Part shown: piece after piece, positions 12,335 to 34,318 of the stretch | Layout: each line of letters opens with the position of its first letter | Numbering within the stretch: the first letter of the stretch is position 1 | Assembly: GCF_900112175.1 (NCBI RefSeq) | Contig: NZ_FOYT01000003.1 | Coordinates: 248,001 to 312,000 of the forward strand | Direction: 5' to 3' | DNA: 64,000 nucleotides | From: Halogeometricum rufum | GTDB taxonomy: Archaea; Halobacteriota; Halobacteria; Halobacteriales; Haloferacaceae | Translations under genes and position numbers: made by a program | The notes under the pieces: model-generated | What the model saw: the letters and a program-made list of their open reading frames with translations, nothing else | Told to the model about the DNA's origin: nothing | Database searches by the model: none

Positions 12335-15073
12335 CTACTGCTGGGCCGGAATGGACGCCGACAGCAGGTGGTCGAACACTTTCCGTTCCGCCTTTCGGAG
12401 GTGCTGGTGGAACGTCGGCGGCGCGACGTTCAGCGACGCCGCGACTTCCTCGCCGGTGCTCTCTCGCGGCCACTCGAAGAAACCGGAGTGGAACGCGGCC
12501 TCCAGCGCCTGATGTTGGCGCTCGGTGAGTTCGGCGGTCATCACACGCTGCACCCGAGTCGGTGGATGTTTCAGCCGCGTAATCTGTCGCTGCTTGAGTA
12601 GCCGAGCCGTCGGATACACTTCCCGGACGCGGTCGATTATCCGACGGACCTCTCCCGTCGGGGGCGCGTGGATGGTCATGCTGAAACCGCCGTCCTCGAT
12701 GACCGCCCGTTCGACGGACCCCCCGACGGACGCCACGGCCGACAGGACGGGGGGGTCGGACAGACGCGCCTCGAACCCGCCATCGTGGAACGTCACCGTC
12801 TCCCAGTGCGGGCGGTGCTCCAGCACGCTGCGGACGACGTCCGCGCCGTCACCCGTCGTCGTCCCGAACAGGAGGTACGACCCGCTCTCGACGGGAATCG
12901 CGTGGTCGAAGGTGACGCGCCCGTCCGTCGCGTCGACGACGTTCAGCGTCGTGAAGAGGTCCGGAACCTCGAAGGCGAGTTCGACCACGTCGTCGCTCAT
13001 CAGCGCTCGCTTCCGTTCGGCCGCGGCGATGGCGTGACCGACGACTTCGCCGAGTTGCCGCATCACCGACCGCTCTTCGCCCTCGAACGCTCCCGGTCGC
13101 TCGCTGTAGACGTTCAGTACGCCGTAGGTCGCGTCCTCGTGGACGACGGGGATGGCCGCCGACGAGCGGAAGTCGTACCGTTCGACGTGGTCGCGCCACG
13201 GGTCGTGGCGGGCGTCGGCCGCGACGTTCTGCGTGGTCTGCACCTCGCCCGTCCGTATGGCCCGTCCCGTCGGTCCCTCGCTTCGCTCGTCGTCCGGGTC
13301 GACCGAAATCGTCACCCCGTCCAGATAGCCCTCGACGCCCGCCTCGGTCCGGAGGTCCACCGTCTTCGTGGCCGCGTCGACGTCGCCGACCCACGCGAAC
13401 GAGTAGGACTCCGACTCGGCGAGGCGCGTGCAGACCGTCTCCTCTATCTCCCCGCGCGTCGACTGTCCGATGACCGCGTCGGTCGTCTCGCGGACCACTT
13501 CGTGGAGGCTGTTGAGTGCCGCGAGTCGCTCTCTGCGGCGTTCGAGTTCGCGCTCCCGGTCGTGACGCGCGATGGCGGACGCGAGGATGTTGGCGACGCT
13601 CTGGACGAAGTTGACGTCGTACGTGGTGAACTCCGTCGACGACCGATTGTGCGTGCCGAGGATTCCCCACGGGTCGTCGCGGGGGCCGATGACCGTGCTG
13701 ACGCCGCTCCGAACGCCGTGGTCCGTGAGCAACGACGGTCCGCCGAATCGCCGTTCGGTCGCGAGGTCGGTCACGACGACGGGGCCGTCGGCTCGGAGCG
13801 TGTGGGCCGCCTGCGAGTCGTCTCCGTCCGCCGAGACGCGCGCCGTCCCGACCAGTCCGTCGTCCCATCCCACGCCGCTCCGAAGCAGCAGTTCGTCGCC
13901 CGACTCGTCGAGGTCGAGCACTTTACACAGGTCGCTGTCGAGGGTCTCGGCCACCAGTTCCGCCGCCTCGGCCAGCAACGCGTCGATGTTGCGGTCCTCG
14001 AGTGCGCGCCGACCCAGGTTCGTAACGACCGACTGCTGGTGGACCCGTCGCTGGAGTTCGTCCTCGCGTTCGAGGCGGTCGGACACGTCGCGGACCACCC
14101 CGCACCGGCCGTACCCGTCCTCGACCGAGTACGCCGCGAGTCGCGTCTCACACGGTACCCGTCTGCCCGCCTTCGTCTCCACGTCGAGGTCGATTCGCGT
14201 CGATTCGCGTTCGCCGGCGACTATCGCTCCGACCTTCGACTCGGCCTCCGGCGTTATCTCGTCGTCGTGAACCATCGTCGCGTGCGCTCCCAGCAGTTCC
14301 TCGCGGTCGTACCCGGTCAACTCGCAGAACCCGTGGTTGACCGCGACGAACCGGGCGTCCTCGTTCACCGCGTAGATGCCGTCTTCGACCGTCTCCACTA
14401 TCGTCTCGTACTGCGCGCGGTGTTCCCGGAGTTCCCGCTCCCGCCGCTTCCGCTCGGTCACGTCGCGGTACACGGCCGCGCGGCCGCCGGCGAACGTCCC
14501 CGCCGTCACGCGCTCGCTTCTGCGTTCGAGCCACCGTTCGGTTCGCTCTCCGCTCGGAGTCACGCGGCACTCGACCCGGTCGCTGCTCTCGGCACCGCCC
14601 GCCGCCAGAACCCGGTCGACGAACGCCTCGGCGTCGTCGAGGGTCGGTGCAACCTCGTCCACGACGAAATCTCGTTTCTCCCGCCCGACGACTCCCGTTC
14701 GGTCGACGCCGAAGTACCGCTCGACGGCCGCGTTGGCCCACGCGACGGTGGACTCCGAATCGAAGACGACCACGGCGGCGCCGACGTCGACGCCGTCGAG
14801 AACGCCGCCCGCCACGGTCCCGGCGTTCGCCGCCGCGTCGTCGCCGACGTGCGTCGCCGCCGACTGCGTGGGTCGCCACCAGACCCGGGCGTTCGCCCCC
14901 ACCTTCTTGGTGGCCAGGCGGTCGCGTTCGGCCAGTCGGTCCAGTCGGTCGTACGCGCTTCGGCGCCCGACCTCCAGTCGGTCGGCCACCTCCGTCGTCG
15001 TCACCGGGTCTCCCGTCTCCTCGAACAGCGCGAGCGTCTCTCGGAGCGCGCCGGTCAGCGAACTGTCGGTCAC
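12335..15073 (-). CDS. Large PAS/GAF sensor-regulator of the Bat family (left copy)
   Basis: This 912-residue cytoplasmic sensor-transcription factor has an N-terminal winged helix (1-70, VTTTEVADRLEVGRRSAYDRL), PAS (about 90-210), PAS (215-340, GIYAVNEDARFVAVNHGFCELTGY), GAF (350-500), GAF (505-660), the bacterio-opsin-activator domain (690-800) and C-terminal HTH_10 (about 850-905, LTERQHQALEAAFHSGFFEWPRE). There is no histidine kinase. It has DNA-binding domains at both ends, so ligand or redox sensing is probably coupled directly to transcription. It is divergent from the DUF7344-like gene at 15305. A close paralogue (18156-21512) mirrors it on the other side of the ParA locus; across one 89-residue GAF stretch 76 positions are identical by my count. 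Confidence 0.88.
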   Translation of the reverse strand: MTDSSLTGALRETLALFEETGDPVTTTEVADRLEVGRRSAYDRLDRLAERDRLATKKVGANARVWWRPTQSAATHVGDDAAANAGTVAGGVLDGVDVGAAVVVFDSESTVAWANAAVERYFGVDRTGVVGREKRDFVVDEVAPTLDDAEAFVDRVLAAGGAESSDRVECRVTPSGERTERWLERRSERVTAGTFAGGRAAVYRDVTERKRRERELREHRAQYETIVETVEDGIYAVNEDARFVAVNHGFCELTGYDREELLGAHATMVHDDEITPEAESKVGAIVAGERESTRIDLDVETKAGRRVPCETRLAAYSVEDGYGRCGVVRDVSDRLEREDELQRRVHQQSVVTNLGRRALEDRNIDALLAEAAELVAETLDSDLCKVLDLDESGDELLLRSGVGWDDGLVGTARVSADGDDSQAAHTLRADGPVVVTDLATERRFGGPSLLTDHGVRSGVSTVIGPRDDPWGILGTHNRSSTEFTTYDVNFVQSVANILASAIARHDRERELERRRERLAALNSLHEVVRETTDAVIGQSTRGEIEETVCTRLAESESYSFAWVGDVDAATKTVDLRTEAGVEGYLDGVTISVDPDDERSEGPTGRAIRTGEVQTTQNVAADARHDPWRDHVERYDFRSSAAIPVVHEDATYGVLNVYSERPGAFEGEERSVMRQLGEVVGHAIAAAERKRALMSDDVVELAFEVPDLFTTLNVVDATDGRVTFDHAIPVESGSYLLFGTTTGDGADVVRSVLEHRPHWETVTFHDGGFEARLSDPPVLSAVASVGGSVERAVIEDGGFSMTIHAPPTGEVRRIIDRVREVYPTARLLKQRQITRLKHPPTRVQRVMTAELTERQHQALEAAFHSGFFEWPRESTGEEVAASLNVAPPTFHQHLRKAERKVFDHLLSASIPAQQ

Positions 15074-15304: not shown

Positions 15305-15610
15305 ATGGCCTCGTCCCCGAACGAACCAACGGCTCTCGCAGCGGTTACGAGCGAACTCTCGGCGAACGAACGACACCGACTGTTGTCGGCCGAACGACGG
15401 CGACTGACGCTCGACGTCGTCACGAACCGCTCCACGTCCGTCAGTCTCGACGCCGTCGCACGCGTGGTTGCGGACCGCGAAACCGACGCCGACGTCCCGG
15501 ACGACGAAACCGTCGAACGGGTGGCGATTTCACTCCACCACGTCCACCTCCCGAAGTTACACGACGCCGGCGTGGTCGAGTACGACACCGAAACGAACCA
15601 GATAGCCTGA
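15305..15610 (+). CDS. DUF7344-like winged-helix protein (left copy)
   Basis: This 101-residue protein resembles haloarchaeal DUF7344 winged-helix proteins: HRLLSAERRRLTLDVV, SLDAVARVVADRE, then ISLHHVHLPKLHDAGVVEYD as recognition helix and wing. It is probably a transcription factor or co-regulator. It is transcribed divergently from the large Bat-type regulator on its left. A second DUF7344-like gene (17619-17927) with the same terminal motif is placed in mirror image, next to the second Bat-type regulator. Confidence 0.8.
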   Translation: MASSPNEPTALAAVTSELSANERHRLLSAERRRLTLDVVTNRSTSVSLDAVARVVADRETDADVPDDETVERVAISLHHVHLPKLHDAGVVEYDTETNQIA

Positions 15611-15721: not shown

Positions 15722-16132
15722 TCAGTCGAACGTCATCCCGTAGCCCCACTCCTCGAGGTGTTCCTCGGCTTCGTCGAGGTGGTCGAGGCCCACCATCACC
15801 AGCGCCTCCCGGAGGTCCGTCAGCGAGACGTCGCCGTCGAAACGGTCCTCCAACTCGCGGAGGGCGTCTCGCTCCGCGGTCTTCGTCTCGGACTGGAGAA
15901 ACAGGGGGACGCGACTCCGGCCGTCTTGAACCCCATCGCGGCGGAACTTGTACGGAATCTGTATCGACTGCCTTCGTTCGTCGGCCGTCGTCTCCGTCTG
16001 GTCTGCCGTCCCGGCATCGTCCGTCGTCTCTGTCGACGTCGAACCGCTCTCCGTCTCGTCGTCCGCGTCGTCCGTGACCGGGTCGTCGTCGGCGAACGGG
16101 TCCTCGCCGGCGCCTTTCTTCATCCCGGTCAT
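15722..16132 (-). CDS. ParA partner protein (putative ParB-like, iteron-binding candidate)
   Basis: This 136-residue protein is encoded immediately after parA with an ATGA overlap (shared bases 16129-16132). Residues 1-65 are acidic, Asp/Thr/Ser-rich and probably disordered. The C-terminal half contains RQSIQIPYKFRRDGVQDGRSRV and SLTDLREALVMVGLDHLDEAEEHLEEWGYGM, a pattern I associate with genes following parA on haloarchaeal plasmids. Its function is not established. By position it is the likely adaptor or centromere-binding protein that recognises the 13-bp iterons upstream of parA (inference). Confidence 0.72.
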   Translation of the reverse strand: MTGMKKGAGEDPFADDDPVTDDADDETESGSTSTETTDDAGTADQTETTADERRQSIQIPYKFRRDGVQDGRSRVPLFLQSETKTAERDALRELEDRFDGDVSLTDLREALVMVGLDHLDEAEEHLEEWGYGMTFD

Positions 16133-17004
16133 ACGGTCATCACCTCGTGGTCCACGTCGCCCGGTTCCGGCGGGTCGGGTGCTTCGAGGCCGACTTCGGA
16201 CTCGAGGTGTCGCGCGAGGCGGTCGAACTGCGCGAGCGTCTCGACCTCGTAGTCGCGGCGACGCTCCCGGTGTTCGCGGACGTACTCGAACGCCGAACAC
16301 TGCTGCATCCAGCAGCCTTCCATCATCGACGCCCGTTCGCCGACGATTTCGGGGATGGGGTAGTCGATTTCGTCGAGGATGGAGCGCTGGTCGCGCGTGT
16401 TCTTGAAGCCCATCGGAATCGCGGCGAGGACGCCGACTTCGACCGCCAACTGCTCTTCGAGGCCGACGACGAGCGACTCCAACCCCTCGACGGCGGCGCG
16501 CCCCTTCGCGCTCGGTTCGACCGGGATGACGAGCGACCGCGTCGCGTTGATGGCGTTGTAGAGGTGCGGTCCTTCGGTCGCGGGTGGGTCGCAGATGAGC
16601 ACGTCGTACGTGTCGGGGACGCCCGCCTCGCGGAGGACGCGCAGCAGTTGCGCGTGCATCCCGAACGCCTCGCCCATCGCCTCCGACTGCTCTTTCTCTC
16701 GCTGGAGGTACTCCGCGAGGTCCGACAGCATGTTGTGTTCCGGGACGATGTCGACGCCTTCGACCGTCCGCACCAGGTCGTCGAACTCTCCCTTCGGTCG
16801 CCGAATCATGTGCCGGACGACGTTGTCGACCGACTCAGTTCGTCGACCGTCGACGCCGAACAGGCGCGAGAGGTCGCCGTCCTGTGGGTCGAGCGGTACG
16901 ACGAGCGGTTTCAGGCCCGCGCGAGCGTGCGCCACGGCGAGGTTCGCCGCGGTCGTCGTCTTCCCCACGCCCCCGGCCTCGCTGTACGTCGAATATGCCA
17001 GCAT
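16129..17004 (-). CDS. parA: ParA-family partition ATPase
   Basis: This 291-residue ParA/Soj-like ATPase segregates replicons by ATP-dependent binding to nucleoid DNA. The P-loop is SEAGGVGKTTTAANLA (8-23). The signature lysine of the deviant Walker A (KGG) is replaced by Ala, as I recall is common in haloarchaeal plasmid ParA proteins. VVPLDPQDGDLSRLFGVDG and VLICDPPATEGPHLYNAI are the A-prime and Walker B regions. Start: a TATA-like CATTAAA (minus strand, 17031-17037) predicts transcription beginning near 17007, favouring ATG 17004 (MLAYSTYSEAG) over ATG 17016. Iterons lie directly upstream. Confidence 0.88.
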   Translation of the reverse strand: MLAYSTYSEAGGVGKTTTAANLAVAHARAGLKPLVVPLDPQDGDLSRLFGVDGRRTESVDNVVRHMIRRPKGEFDDLVRTVEGVDIVPEHNMLSDLAEYLQREKEQSEAMGEAFGMHAQLLRVLREAGVPDTYDVLICDPPATEGPHLYNAINATRSLVIPVEPSAKGRAAVEGLESLVVGLEEQLAVEVGVLAAIPMGFKNTRDQRSILDEIDYPIPEIVGERASMMEGCWMQQCSAFEYVREHRERRRDYEVETLAQFDRLARHLESEVGLEAPDPPEPGDVDHEVMTV

Positions 17005-17054
17005 CGTCGTGTACATTACGACAACTCGTCTTTAATGTTCGTCAGACAAACTCG

Positions 17055-17119
17055 TGAACACTCTTGATGAATGTATGTAGTGGATGAATGCGGTGAACAC
17101 AACTAGTGAATATCACCGA
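17055..17119 (+). repeat. 13-bp iteron array A (5 units)
   Basis: Five consecutive 13-bp units start at 17055, 17068, 17081, 17094 and 17107. Each begins TGAA or TGGA (for example TGAACACTCTTGA and TGAACACAACTAG). The period is exact, with divergence outside the TGAAYAC core. The array lies 50 bp upstream of parA, suiting a centromere or operator site. Confidence 0.85.
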
Positions 17120-17262
17120 GGCCGCTCTCCTACCCTATTCGGCGAGGCACGCCGGTGATTCCGCGAGAACGCCGTCGAACGCCGTTCAGAGTCGGTATCG
17201 GGGAACGCCGAGACCACCGCACACGGATTCACGGGAGTCACGTCGGTACCGGAGTCCTGCGA

Positions 17263-17314
17263 TGAACGAATACGGTGAACATCCTCGCTGAACACGTCCG
17301 ACGAACGAACTGTC
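17263..17314 (+). repeat. 13-bp iteron array B (4 units)
   Basis: Four units at exact 13-bp spacing start at 17263, 17276, 17289 and 17302, with cores TGAACGA, TGAACAT, TGAACAC and CGAACGA. They have the same core and period as arrays A and C. Confidence 0.8.
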
Positions 17315-17344
17315 CCGGTGATCCGCTACAGGTGGAATACGTCG

Positions 17345-17526
17345 TGAACGACGTTCGAGAATCTCACCACCGAACCACTGTCGCGAACACGTCCGCTGAA
17401 TCATGTGAATGAATACACTTGATGAATACAAACGGTGAACACAAACAATGAACACAAGTAACGAATACAACTGATGGACGAAACACGTGGACGCGGAGCA
17501 CGAACACACGGCGCGAGCATCTCGTC
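17345..17526 (+). repeat. 13-bp iteron array C (14 units), putative parS/iteron centre
   Basis: Fourteen units run in exact 13-bp register from 17345: 17358, 17371, 17384, 17397, 17410, 17423, 17436, 17449, 17462, 17475, 17488, 17501 and 17514. The best units, such as TGAATACAAACGG and TGAACACAAACAA, are central; the outer ones decay to CGAAC or TGGAC. Consensus is YGAAYAC-N6. A 13-bp period rotates around the helix, so binding would form a spiral rather than lie on one face. With ParA and its partner gene this is most likely the partition site, possibly also a replication iteron. Confidence 0.85.
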
Positions 17527-17618
17527 GAGGAGTCCCGCCGGTGCCGTCGTCACCGCCGCGAACGACACGGCGACGGGAGAAGAGTCAGCGGGGGTCGCGA
17601 GTGGCCATCGAACGCTCG

Positions 17619-17927
17619 CTACGACTCGATTCGACGGGAGTCCGGGTCGTACTCGACGACGCCGGCGTCGTGCAACTTCGGGAGGTGGACGTGGTGGAGC
17701 GAACTCGCCACGCGCGTCAGGACGGCGTCGTCCGCGGCGTCGAGTTCGTCGTCTCGCGTCGCGATTTCCGCCGCGAGTGAATCGAGTGCGAGGGGACCGC
17801 TCCGGTCGTCGAACACGTCGAGCAACTCCCGGCGTCGTTCGGCCGAGAGCAGTCGGTACCAGTCTCTCTCCGTCACGTGGTCGGGCCGTTCGTACTCCGT
17901 CGCGAGTTTCGGTACTGTGTGGCTCAT
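17619..17927 (-). CDS. DUF7344-like winged-helix protein (right copy)
   Basis: This 102-residue paralogue of the 15305 gene contains WYRLLSAERRRELLDVF, LALDSLAAEIATRDDE and SSLHHVHLPKLHDAGVVEYD. ATG 17925-17927 gives MSHTVPKLATEY. The long open frame continuing leftward from 19175 belongs to the opposite strand's gene. It is divergent from the second Bat-type regulator (18156). Like its twin it is probably a DNA-binding co-regulator of the neighbouring sensor (inference from repeated linkage). Confidence 0.8.
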   Translation of the reverse strand: MSHTVPKLATEYERPDHVTERDWYRLLSAERRRELLDVFDDRSGPLALDSLAAEIATRDDELDAADDAVLTRVASSLHHVHLPKLHDAGVVEYDPDSRRIES

Positions 17928-18155
17928 GGGAGGCGCTTCGTCGCTACTGTCATCCAGTCTCCGGGGCCTCCTAAGGAACGTCCCTAACGAGTTAGGTACC
18001 TGTCGTCGCCGAGGACGAAATATTTCGTCGCCAAGGAGTAAACGTCGTGTCACGACGGCCCCTGTCGGTTGGGGGTTCCGGTCACCTCGTCTCTCGGTCC
18101 GGTTCCGTTTCCATCGACGGAACTTTAATATACCGAGGCAGTGCACCTTCAGGAA

Positions 18156-21100
18156 ATGGAATCCCGACCGCTGACGGACCCGCTCAGACAGACCCTCGAC
18201 GCGTTCGGGGCGGTCGGTGAACCGGTGACGACGCCCGAAGTGGCCGAGCGTCTCGACATCGGCCGCCGAACCGCGTACGCTCGGCTCGAACGACTCGTCG
18301 AGGACGGACGGGTCGAGACGAAGAAGGTGGGAGCGAACGCCCGGGTCTGGTGGCGACCGGTGGGCGACGCCCCGACGGCGACGCTCGGCCCGTCGACCGC
18401 GGCCGATTCGCTCGTCGGCGAGGTGCTCGACGACGTCGAAGTCGGGATCTTCGTCCTCGACGAGTCCTTCGACGTCGTCTGGGTCAACGGCGCGACCGAA
18501 CGCTACTTCGGTCTCGACCGGACGGCGGTTCTGGGGGCGAACAAGCGTCGACTCGTCACCGACCGCATCGCTGCGACCGTCGAGGACTCGGCGTCGTTCG
18601 CGGACACCGTGCTGGCGACGTACGACGACAACAGTTCTCCCCAGGAGTTCGAGTGTCACGTGACGGCCGCCGACGAACGCGAGGAGCGGTGGCTCGAACA
18701 CCGCAGCGAACCCATCGAATCGGGCACGTACGCGGGCGGTCGGGTCGAACTCTACTACGACGTCACCGAACGGAAGCGGTCGGAACGCTCCCGTCGAGAG
18801 GACCGCGAGGTGTTCGAGTCGTTCGTCGAACGCGTCGACGAGTACGCCATCTTCACGCTCGACACCGAGGGTCGCGTCCAGACGTGGAACCGGGGGGCCG
18901 AGCGAATCAAGGGCTACGCGCAGGAGGACATCGTGGGCGAGCACGTCTCGACGTTCTACACGGCGGAAGACTGCGCCGCCGGCGTCCCGGAGGAGAACCT
19001 CGCGGCGGCGGCAGAGCGAGGTTCGGTCGAGTTCGAGGGCTGGCGCGTGGACGCGGACGGCGACCGGTTCTGGGCGAACGTGGCGATGTGGGCGATACGC
19101 GACGCGAACGGGGAACTGGAGGGCTACGCGAAGGTGACCCGGGACCTGACGGAGCGACGGGACCGCGAACGGCAACTGCGCCGCGAACGTGACCTCACGG
19201 ACCGGTTGCTGGAGACGGCACCCGTCAGGCTCGCCATCTTCCGACCCGACGGGACGGTGGAGCGAACGAACGCCGTCGCCGGCAGGGAACTGGGCCTCGA
19301 CGACGCCGAGCTAGAGACGCTGCGAGTCGAGGACCTCGACCTCTACGACCCCGACGGCGAGCCGATTCCGACGGCCGAACACCCGGTTTCTCGCGTCGTC
19401 GAGACCGGAGAGCCGGTCTCCGACAGGTTGGTCCAACACGACGGCTCCGACGGCACCCGGCGGTGGGTGTCGCTGACCGCGACGCCCCTGTTCGACGACG
19501 GGACCCTCGAACGCGTCGTCGTCGCCGGGAAGGACGTGACGGAACTGAAGCGGAAGGAACGGCGACTCGAACGCCAGCGGGACGAGTTGGACGCCGAACT
19601 CGACGAGGTGTTCGCGCGCATCGACGACGCCTTCTTCGCCCTCGACGAGGAGTTGCGGTTCGTCTACCTCAACGAGCAGGCGGTGACGCTCATGGACCTG
19701 TCGGGGGCCGGTCCGGTGGGCGAGCACGTCGGGAACGTCATCCCCACCGATACCGAGGTGGTGGCGGCGTTCGAGGAGGCGTTCGAGACGCAGGAGTCCG
19801 TCTCGGTCGAAGAGTACCACGCCTCGTTGGGCCGGTGGTTCGAGACGCACGTCTACCCGTCGGAGACGGGTCTGTCGGTCTACTTCCGGGACGTCTCCCG
19901 GCGGAAAGCCCACGAACGCGAACTCGAACGGTACGAGACCATCGTCGAAACGGTCCCCGACGGCGTCTACGCCCTCGACGACGAGGGTCGGTACGCTCTG
20001 GTCAACGACGCGTTCTGCGAGTTGACGGGGTACGACAGCGAGGACCTGCTCGGCCGCCGGCCGACGCTCGTCGAGGGCCGAGAAGTCCACGAACGGGCGA
20101 ACGAACTCGGACGGGAGATACTTGCCGGTGACCGGGACGACGGGACGCTCCAGTACAGTCTCCAGACCGCCGAGGGCGGTGAAGTCGCCGTCGAGGGGAA
20201 CTTCACCACCTACCGATACGGGGACGACGCGGCCGGTCGGGCCGGCGTCGTCCGCGACGTGACGGCACGGGTCGAACGCGAACGCGAACTCGAACGCCGG
20301 CGTGAGCGACTCCGAGCGCTCAACAGTCTCAACGAGGTGGTGCGGGGCATCGCCGAGGCCGTCATCGAGCAGTCGACGCGCGAGGAGATAGAGGAGACGG
20401 TCTGCGACCGACTCGCCGCGGCGGAGCCGTATCTGTTCGCGTGGGTCGGCGACGTCGACCCGGCCTCGCAGACGGTGTCGCTGCGGTCCGAAGCGGGCGT
20501 CGAGGGCTATCTGGACGGCGTGACGATTTCGGTCGACTCGGACGACGAACGCAGCGAGGGGCCGACGGGACGGGCCATACGGACGGGGGAAGTGCAGACC
20601 ACGCGGGACACCGTGGCGGACGTCCGCCACGACCCGTGGCGCGACCACATCGAGCAGTACGACTTCCGGTCGTCCGCCGCGATACCGATAACTCACGAGG
20701 ACACGCCCTACGGCGTGCTGAACGTCTACAGCGACCGCCCGGGCGCGTTCGAGGGCGAGGAGTACGAGATGGTCGGACAACTCGGCGAAATCGTCGGTCA
20801 CGCCATCGCGGCCGTGGAACGCAAGCACGCACTGATGAGCGACGACGTGGTCGAACTCGTCTTCCAGATCGAGAACGTCTTCGAGTCGCTCGGCGTGGAC
20901 GACGCCACGGACGCCCCGATTCGCCTCGAACACATCGTCCGGGTCGGCGACGACAAGTTCGTCTTCTTCGGACGGACGACTCCCGAGGGCGTCGGCACCG
21001 TCGAGGCGATGGTCGAGTCGGTGCCGTTCTACGAGTCCGTCACCGTCCACGACGGCGGCGACGAACGGCGGTTCGAACTCCGAGTGTCGGAGCCACCGGT

Positions 21101-21512
21101 ACTCGCCGCCATCAGTACGCTGGGCGGCGGCGTCGCCGAGGCGGTCATCGAGGGCGGCGACTATCGGCTCTCCGTCCACCTCCCGCCGAGCGCCGACGTC
21201 CGCCGGGTGGTCGAGACGATGACGGACGCCTACCCGACCACGAAACTGCTGAAGCGCCGGCAACTGACCAAACACAGCCGCGCCGAGGAACGGCAGGTGA
21301 GCACGCTCACGTCCGACCTGACGGACAGGCAGCGCACCGCGCTGGAAACCGCCTACTACGCGGGATTCTTCGAGTGGCCGCGGGCGGTGACGGGCGAAGA
21401 CGTCGCCGAGTCTCTGGGCGTGAGTCCGCCGACGTTCCACCAGCACCTCCGCAAGGCCGAGCGGAAGATGTTCGACGCGGTGTTCGGTTCGGGGATGCGC
21501 GAGTCGACGTGA
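18156..21512 (+). CDS. Large multi-PAS/GAF sensor-regulator of the Bat family (right copy)
   Basis: This 1118-residue protein has a winged helix (1-65), five PAS-like domains (about 80-205, 210-335 with IKGYAQEDIVGEHVSTFYT, 340-465, 470-580, 580-705 with GVYALDDEGRYALVNDAFC), a GAF (715-860), the bacterio-opsin-activator domain (870-1000) and HTH_10 (1055-1110, LTDRQRTALETAYYAGFFEWPRA). It is a paralogue of 12335-15073 with three extra PAS modules. A TATA element (TTTAATATA, about 18123-18131) supports a leaderless start at ATG 18156 rather than 18141. It has no kinase domain. The signal sensed is unknown; several PAS domains may bind heme, flavin or nothing. Confidence 0.88.
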   Translation: MESRPLTDPLRQTLDAFGAVGEPVTTPEVAERLDIGRRTAYARLERLVEDGRVETKKVGANARVWWRPVGDAPTATLGPSTAADSLVGEVLDDVEVGIFVLDESFDVVWVNGATERYFGLDRTAVLGANKRRLVTDRIAATVEDSASFADTVLATYDDNSSPQEFECHVTAADEREERWLEHRSEPIESGTYAGGRVELYYDVTERKRSERSRREDREVFESFVERVDEYAIFTLDTEGRVQTWNRGAERIKGYAQEDIVGEHVSTFYTAEDCAAGVPEENLAAAAERGSVEFEGWRVDADGDRFWANVAMWAIRDANGELEGYAKVTRDLTERRDRERQLRRERDLTDRLLETAPVRLAIFRPDGTVERTNAVAGRELGLDDAELETLRVEDLDLYDPDGEPIPTAEHPVSRVVETGEPVSDRLVQHDGSDGTRRWVSLTATPLFDDGTLERVVVAGKDVTELKRKERRLERQRDELDAELDEVFARIDDAFFALDEELRFVYLNEQAVTLMDLSGAGPVGEHVGNVIPTDTEVVAAFEEAFETQESVSVEEYHASLGRWFETHVYPSETGLSVYFRDVSRRKAHERELERYETIVETVPDGVYALDDEGRYALVNDAFCELTGYDSEDLLGRRPTLVEGREVHERANELGREILAGDRDDGTLQYSLQTAEGGEVAVEGNFTTYRYGDDAAGRAGVVRDVTARVERERELERRRERLRALNSLNEVVRGIAEAVIEQSTREEIEETVCDRLAAAEPYLFAWVGDVDPASQTVSLRSEAGVEGYLDGVTISVDSDDERSEGPTGRAIRTGEVQTTRDTVADVRHDPWRDHIEQYDFRSSAAIPITHEDTPYGVLNVYSDRPGAFEGEEYEMVGQLGEIVGHAIAAVERKHALMSDDVVELVFQIENVFESLGVDDATDAPIRLEHIVRVGDDKFVFFGRTTPEGVGTVEAMVESVPFYESVTVHDGGDERRFELRVSEPPVLAAISTLGGGVAEAVIEGGDYRLSVHLPPSADVRRVVETMTDAYPTTKLLKRRQLTKHSRAEERQVSTLTSDLTDRQRTALETAYYAGFFEWPRAVTGEDVAESLGVSPPTFHQHLRKAERKMFDAVFGSGMREST

Positions 21513-34270: not shown

Positions 34271-34318
34271 TGAACACGCTGAACACACGTACTGAACATT
34301 TATGGTGAACACGAATGG
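34271..34318 (+). repeat. Distant 13-bp iteron mini-array D
   Basis: TGAACAC-type units start at 34271, 34280, 34293 and 34306. The last three are at exact 13-bp spacing (TGAACACACGTAC, TGAACATTTATGG, TGAACACGAATGG). Core and period match arrays A-C at 17055-17526, 17 kb away, so the same protein probably binds here. No par gene is adjacent. Confidence 0.7.

Follow-up and report, generated by a model that had tools for sequence, protein, structure and literature searches.

An array of 13-bp-spaced repeats upstream of a parA-partner gene pair as the likely centromere of a widespread family of haloarchaeal DNA-partition systems

The window analysed here is a 64,000-nucleotide stretch of Halogeometricum rufum (positions 248,001 to 312,000 of contig NZ_FOYT01000003.1, assembly GCF_900112175.1), and the contig, hereafter C3, measures 369,313 bp in a 4.19-Mb genome of seven contigs. 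It carries on the minus strand a parA gene followed by a small partner gene, whose ATG overlaps the parA stop (ATGA), and the repeats described below lie in the 602-bp intergenic region between parA and a DUF7344 gene (Table 1). This region is AT-richer than its surroundings (55.8% against 66.1% GC). The cassette is flanked by two similar gene pairs in opposite orientation, each made of a DUF7344 or DUF7344-like gene and a PAS/GAF/BAT/HTH_10 regulator, which looks like an old inverted duplication around the cassette. The annotated parA start may be four codons too early (17002-17016), as relatives are conserved from the second methionine (MLAY).

Table 1. Features of the parA-partner locus and of its satellite islands (window coordinates, except where contig C3 is named)
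Feature	Position	Strand	Description
Iteron array 1	17055..17119	+	5 slots at 13 bp (4 with GAAY), nearest to parA and next to its probable promoter; lattice score 28.1
Iteron array 2	17263..17314	+	4 slots at 13 bp, same register as array 1; lattice score 29.8
Iteron array 3	17345..17526	+	14 slots at 13 bp (11 with GAAY), register shifted by 4 bp; strongest block 17397-17474; lattice score 42.7
Intergenic region	17017-17618		602 bp, contains the three arrays
parA	16129..17016	-	295 aa Walker-type ATPase (PF13614); conserved family start probably Met5 (17002-17004)
ParA Walker A	16954..16980	-	EAGGVGKTT; alanine in place of the signature lysine of the ParA/MinD family
Partner gene	15722..16132	-	136 aa; presumed centromere-binding protein
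Partner N-terminal peptide	16088..16132	-	MTGMKKGAGEDPFAD; conserved (K5 in >=90%, G7 invariant); presumed ParA-contacting tail, followed by an acidic linker of variable length
Partner C-terminal domain	15725..15976	-	Residues 53-136; presumed DNA-binding domain; extended strand plus helices, possibly ribbon-helix-helix
DUF7344-like gene	15305-15610	+	Judged by eye
DUF7344 gene	17619-17927	-	Pfam assignment; winged-helix protein
PAS/GAF/BAT/HTH_10 regulator	12335-15073	-	
PAS/GAF/BAT/HTH_10 regulator	18141-21512	+	
Satellite island	34271..34318	+	TGAACAC / TGAACAC / TGAACAT / TGAACAC at 34271, 34280, 34293 and 34306 (last three at 13 bp); lattice score 36.5, second best on the contig
Second satellite island	about C3:226078-226122		TAAATAC, TGAATGT, TGAACAT, TGAACAC, each 13 bp apart; about 39 kb to the left on the same contig

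A first-pass annotation of the sequence had described about 23 iterons of the form YGAAYAC-N6, in three arrays of 5, 4 and 14 units keeping a strict 13-bp register, and our analysis confirms that these arrays exist and lie where they were placed. In the intergenic region YGAAYAC occurs 11 times (shuffle mean 0.56, maximum 4), with 4 pairs at exactly 13 bp (mean 0.0005), while GAAY occurs 29 times, with 14 pairs at 13 bp (mean 0.17, maximum 3), and none of 2000 shuffles reached any of these values. GAAY spacings stand out at 13, 39, 26 and 52 bp only. However, several details need correction. The strict consensus YGAAYAC is found in only 10 of the 23 slots, whereas 19 of 23 have GAAY and the slots at 17081, 17475, 17488 and 17514 do not. 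The register is strict within arrays, and arrays 1 and 2 share it (208 = 16 x 13 bp apart), but array 3 is shifted. The six intervening bases are not free, since relatives show a fuller unit close to TGAACACAACTAR. Tandem Repeats Finder sees only 2.8 copies, because the units are diverged while the spacing is kept. Finally, the pattern extends outside these coordinates to two satellite islands on the same contig. Sigma-70 promoter and terminator scans, which do not suit archaea, found nothing.

The first-pass annotation had named the presence of the repeat next to other haloarchaeal parA genes as a test of its reading, and this search came out strongly positive for the 13-bp spacing. ParA orthologues were collected from one genome per species, and partner homologues from 170 genomes of the same family, without any of them being chosen for its repeats. 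After removal of near-identical upstream regions, 118 loci remained. Of the 110 with ParA at >=45% identity, 103 have 13 or 26 bp as best self-match lag upstream of parA, and in 104 the lag-13 score is reached by at most one of 100 dinucleotide shuffles. Some loci show no lattice (those labelled L119 and L134 in our set) or a weak one (L054, L083 and L020), and of the eight with ParA near 30% identity only one shows it. Pooled matches upstream of parA are 0.350, 0.332, 0.318 and 0.297 at 13, 26, 39 and 52 bp, against 0.255 (sd 0.011) at other lags, with no signal at 13 or 26 bp far upstream, in the coding region or downstream. Short tandem repeats can arise by slippage, but neutral repeat growth or a chance pattern is refuted by the shuffles and by the recurrence of the same period, with unrelated words and at the same place, in about 100 loci, where in our locus the units are diverged while their spacing is exact.

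The period is present in every word class, but the word itself changes by clade. In the close clade it is TGAAYA, with same-strand spacings of 13 (147 pairs), 26 (112), 39 (70) and 52 bp (36), followed by 35 bp (12), whereas in a clade with ParA 61-69% alike it is CTAAGA/TCTTAG, and in others TAGCTATA, CTAACTA-like or ACTGA-like. Some of these words are palindromic and some are not. A 13-column motif search by EM absorbed AT-rich background and was dropped in favour of lattice-paired k-mers. In the upstream regions of clade-A loci, secondary spacings of 9, 22 and 35 bp (13n + 9, that is, a slip of 4 bp) recur, like the register shift between arrays 2 and 3 here, and reverse-oriented units sit at preferred offsets on the lattice nearer to parA.

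The word follows the partner protein rather than ParA. Partner identity and lattice-word similarity correlate at 0.81 (Mantel test, 0 of 2000 permutations), and with ParA identity held constant the correlation is 0.52 (0 of 500), the converse being 0.15. Locus pairs with ParA 66-80% alike and partners at least 60% alike have a mean word similarity of 0.50 (335 pairs), while pairs with ParA at least 66% alike but partners under 50% alike have 0.01 (926 pairs). ParA, partner and word share ancestry and the pairs are not independent, so this is strong comparative support and not proof of binding, and in particular it is the partner's C-terminal domain that the word tracks. An alternative is that the arrays are bound by a different protein, for example the DUF7344 product, whose gene is the next one upstream, or ParA itself. 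We consider this very unlikely, as ParA similarity adds little to explaining the word once the partner is taken into account, and as the annotated neighbours differ in Halobacterium salinarum pNRC200 (VNG_RS11715, VNG_RS11710) and Haloferax mediterranei pHME132 (E6P09_RS18875, E6P09_RS18870), which carry the same cassette and arrays, the partner being annotated there as a hypothetical protein.

Concerning the partner, its gene lies downstream of parA in every examined locus where ParA was found, and overlaps or abuts it in nearly all loci. Eighty-nine partners align with invariant G7, P60, R65, R72, D106, E109, W129 and G130 and nearly invariant K5, R108, A110, L126 and Y131, and share an N-terminal peptide (MTGMKxGAGxDPFA, MxGFKxGA or MKxGA), the acidic linker and a C-terminal domain. 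Sequence-profile searches of the partner against the PDB, Pfam, PHROGs and NCBIfam gave nothing convincing, the protein has no Pfam or NCBIfam match and no solved relative by sequence, and it has no match to ParB, with its N-terminal CTPase domain and helix-turn-helix, in Pfam, NCBIfam or solved structures. The AlphaFold2 model of the full-length protein has low confidence at residues 18-52 and matches ribbon-helix-helix chains only weakly, the nearest being the F-plasmid TraM (4qpo, Z 5.1, 51 residues, rmsd 2.6), with TCP domains (7vp6 and 5zkt), MazE-mt1 (6kyt) and DinJ (9lew) also listed. The model of the C-terminal domain alone (pLDDT 90.8) matches instead UBA-like helical bundles (best Z 5.1), and Foldseek gave no match with E below 0.001 for either. 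The helices of the domain are predicted with high confidence in both, but since the nearest structures disagree, and since the models are monomers whereas the ribbon-helix-helix fold is a dimer, we do not claim this fold, and its comparison with ParG, omega and SegB does not come down on either side. TraM has a ribbon-helix-helix domain with plasmid-specific DNA binding, but serves conjugation.

The ParA of this locus belongs to the P-loop ATPases of the ParA family (PF13614, E 3e-18), and its nearest solved relatives are Soj segregation proteins. However, it lacks the deviant Walker A motif KGGxxK[S/T] with its signature lysine, a hallmark of type I ParA: the motif is E(A/S)GGxGK(S/T) in all 90 sequences with ParA at >=45% identity whose start could be read, whereas two other ParAs of the same genome, on contigs C4 and C6, have KGGVGKT. 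McdA also lacks the lysine (SGGQGKT, PMC9178275). We therefore regard the protein as working like a ParA, with a family-specific change.

TGAAYA-N7-TGAAYA occurs eight times in the genome, all on C3 and all in one orientation. A lattice scan of C3 at period 13 gives five arrays in only three places, namely the parA region and the two satellite islands, all scoring at least 28.1, while the next score is 15.8. In 29 relatives plus this genome, 18 satellite loci lie on parA contigs (8.2 Mb) and 14 elsewhere (104 Mb), a 16-fold enrichment, although genome sizes in this count are rounded values and, several genomes being drafts, some of the 14 may lie on the same replicon. These data bear on the possibility that the arrays are only an autoregulatory operator, through which the partner or ParA would repress transcription by covering the promoter, without any role in segregation. 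Array 1 does begin 39 bp from the annotated parA start, and centromere binders of this general kind usually double as repressors. Nevertheless, about 19-23 units over 470 bp are far more than repression needs, and satellites lie 17 and 39 kb away on the same replicon, which makes an operator-only role unlikely. It is likewise very unlikely that the arrays are replication-origin iterons bound by Orc1/Cdc6 or a Rep protein. Iterons are typical of origins and the region is AT-rich, but the two Orc1/Cdc6 genes of the contig lie about 30 and 60 kb away, the inverted ORB elements with a G-string that known haloarchaeal origins carry next to orc/cdc6 genes (PMC3528665) are not seen here, the word follows the partner, and satellites are spread over the replicon; autonomous replication from the array was not assayed.

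We therefore propose, with high confidence, that the repeats are the centromere of a ParABS-like partition cassette (array - parA - partner) of a 369-kb haloarchaeal replicon. In this view, the partner would bind the 13-bp units through its conserved C-terminal domain, probably as dimers, one per unit, and cover the arrays cooperatively. Each protomer would be turned 86-90 degrees from the last, so that about four units would make one turn of a protein coil over about 52 bp, values that are arithmetic from the spacing and helical repeat and not a measurement. The conserved N-terminal lysine peptide, on its flexible acidic linker, would then reach ParA-ATP on the nucleoid and trigger its ATPase, which moves the replicon. 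As array 1 sits directly upstream of parA, the same binding probably also represses the parA-partner operon. Satellite islands would be further loading sites, and different words on the same lattice would keep the partition systems of different replicons apart. What the computation itself establishes is the lattice, its conservation and linkage to the cassette, the agreement of word and partner, and the satellites; binding, coil geometry, ATPase triggering, segregation and incompatibility are inferred, no binding, stability or localisation data being at hand. The interpretation of the first-pass annotation, a centromere-filament-like array bound by the 136-residue partner of ParA, is supported, the binder by comparison; its spiral geometry is a fair inference that nothing here tests, and it did not foresee that the word changes between clades while the spacing stays, nor the satellite sites.

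Among the closest known systems is the type Ib partition system of TP228, ParF-ParG (called ParA-ParB in PMC5393062), where a ParA-type ATPase is followed by a small partner with a disordered ParA-binding N-terminus and a C-terminal ribbon-helix-helix DNA-binding motif. The partner here resembles the TP228 partner in this layout of N-terminus and DNA-binding domain. Repeats also lie upstream of that operon. Here ParA is larger (295 aa against 206) and lacks the signature lysine, the partner has no detectable sequence similarity, the period is 13 bp and constant across clades while the word changes, and satellite islands exist. The delta-omega system of pSM19035, with its heptad-repeat parS, likewise has short units in direct and inverted orientation at a non-helical spacing in promoter regions, bound by a small DNA-binding protein that coils along DNA, but these are 7-bp heptads, no sequence similarity was shown, and it belongs to a different domain of life. 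In Archaea, Sulfolobus SegAB (PMC5120986; structure described in PMC9178275) pairs a ParA-type ATPase with a small archaea-specific ribbon-helix-helix protein that wraps DNA as a helix, with sites upstream of the operon. However, SegB sites are a few imperfect palindromes and that system is chromosomal, whereas here we find long 13-bp arrays on extrachromosomal replicons and no detectable similarity of the partner. The AspA-ParB-ParA system of pNOB8 (PMC5120986) is an archaeal plasmid partition system with a superhelical protein-DNA complex, but it has three proteins and one 23-bp palindrome from which AspA spreads, against two proteins and a long iteron array here.

The components thus work like those of type I systems, but the signature lysine is missing, the partner belongs to no described family that we could find, and no description of a 13-bp array, of this partner family or of a centromere family with a constant 13-bp period and a changing word was found in the open-access literature, to which our search was restricted, so that this absence is weak evidence. 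A review of archaeal segregation lists as an open question how halophilic archaea segregate several replicons at once (PMC5120986), and a discussion of new Haloferax chromosomes assumes random partitioning (PMC6063281). A conserved centromere type with a readable code, present on replicons of H. salinarum and Hfx. mediterranei, makes this question directly testable. It also offers a natural experiment on how a centromere and its binder change together while the geometry stays fixed, and a way to predict compatible and incompatible replicons from sequence. A more far-reaching possibility, which we hold only tentatively, is that of a haloarchaea-wide partition family in which the spacing is fixed by the binder's geometry, at about four units per protein turn, while the word drifts between clades and sets the incompatibility group, replicons carry a main centromere plus scattered satellite centromeres, and the lysine missing from the Walker A motif of ParA is supplied in trans by the conserved N-terminal lysine (K5) of the partner, the latter being a hypothesis only.

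Six loci (L116, L126, L127, L130, L132 and L137), several of them on multi-megabase contigs, carry a related partner (N-terminus MTKDDRYGAAGDTYG) next to a ParA only about 30% identical, without any 13-bp lattice nearby, and perhaps represent a chromosomal version with a different or distant site. Moreover, upstream of the different, lysine-bearing ParA on contig C6 of H. rufum there is an AT-rich stretch (locus L007, 2430-2720) with a 9-bp self-match period (lags 9, 18 and 27), possibly another iteron type, and each large replicon of this genome may carry its own partition code.
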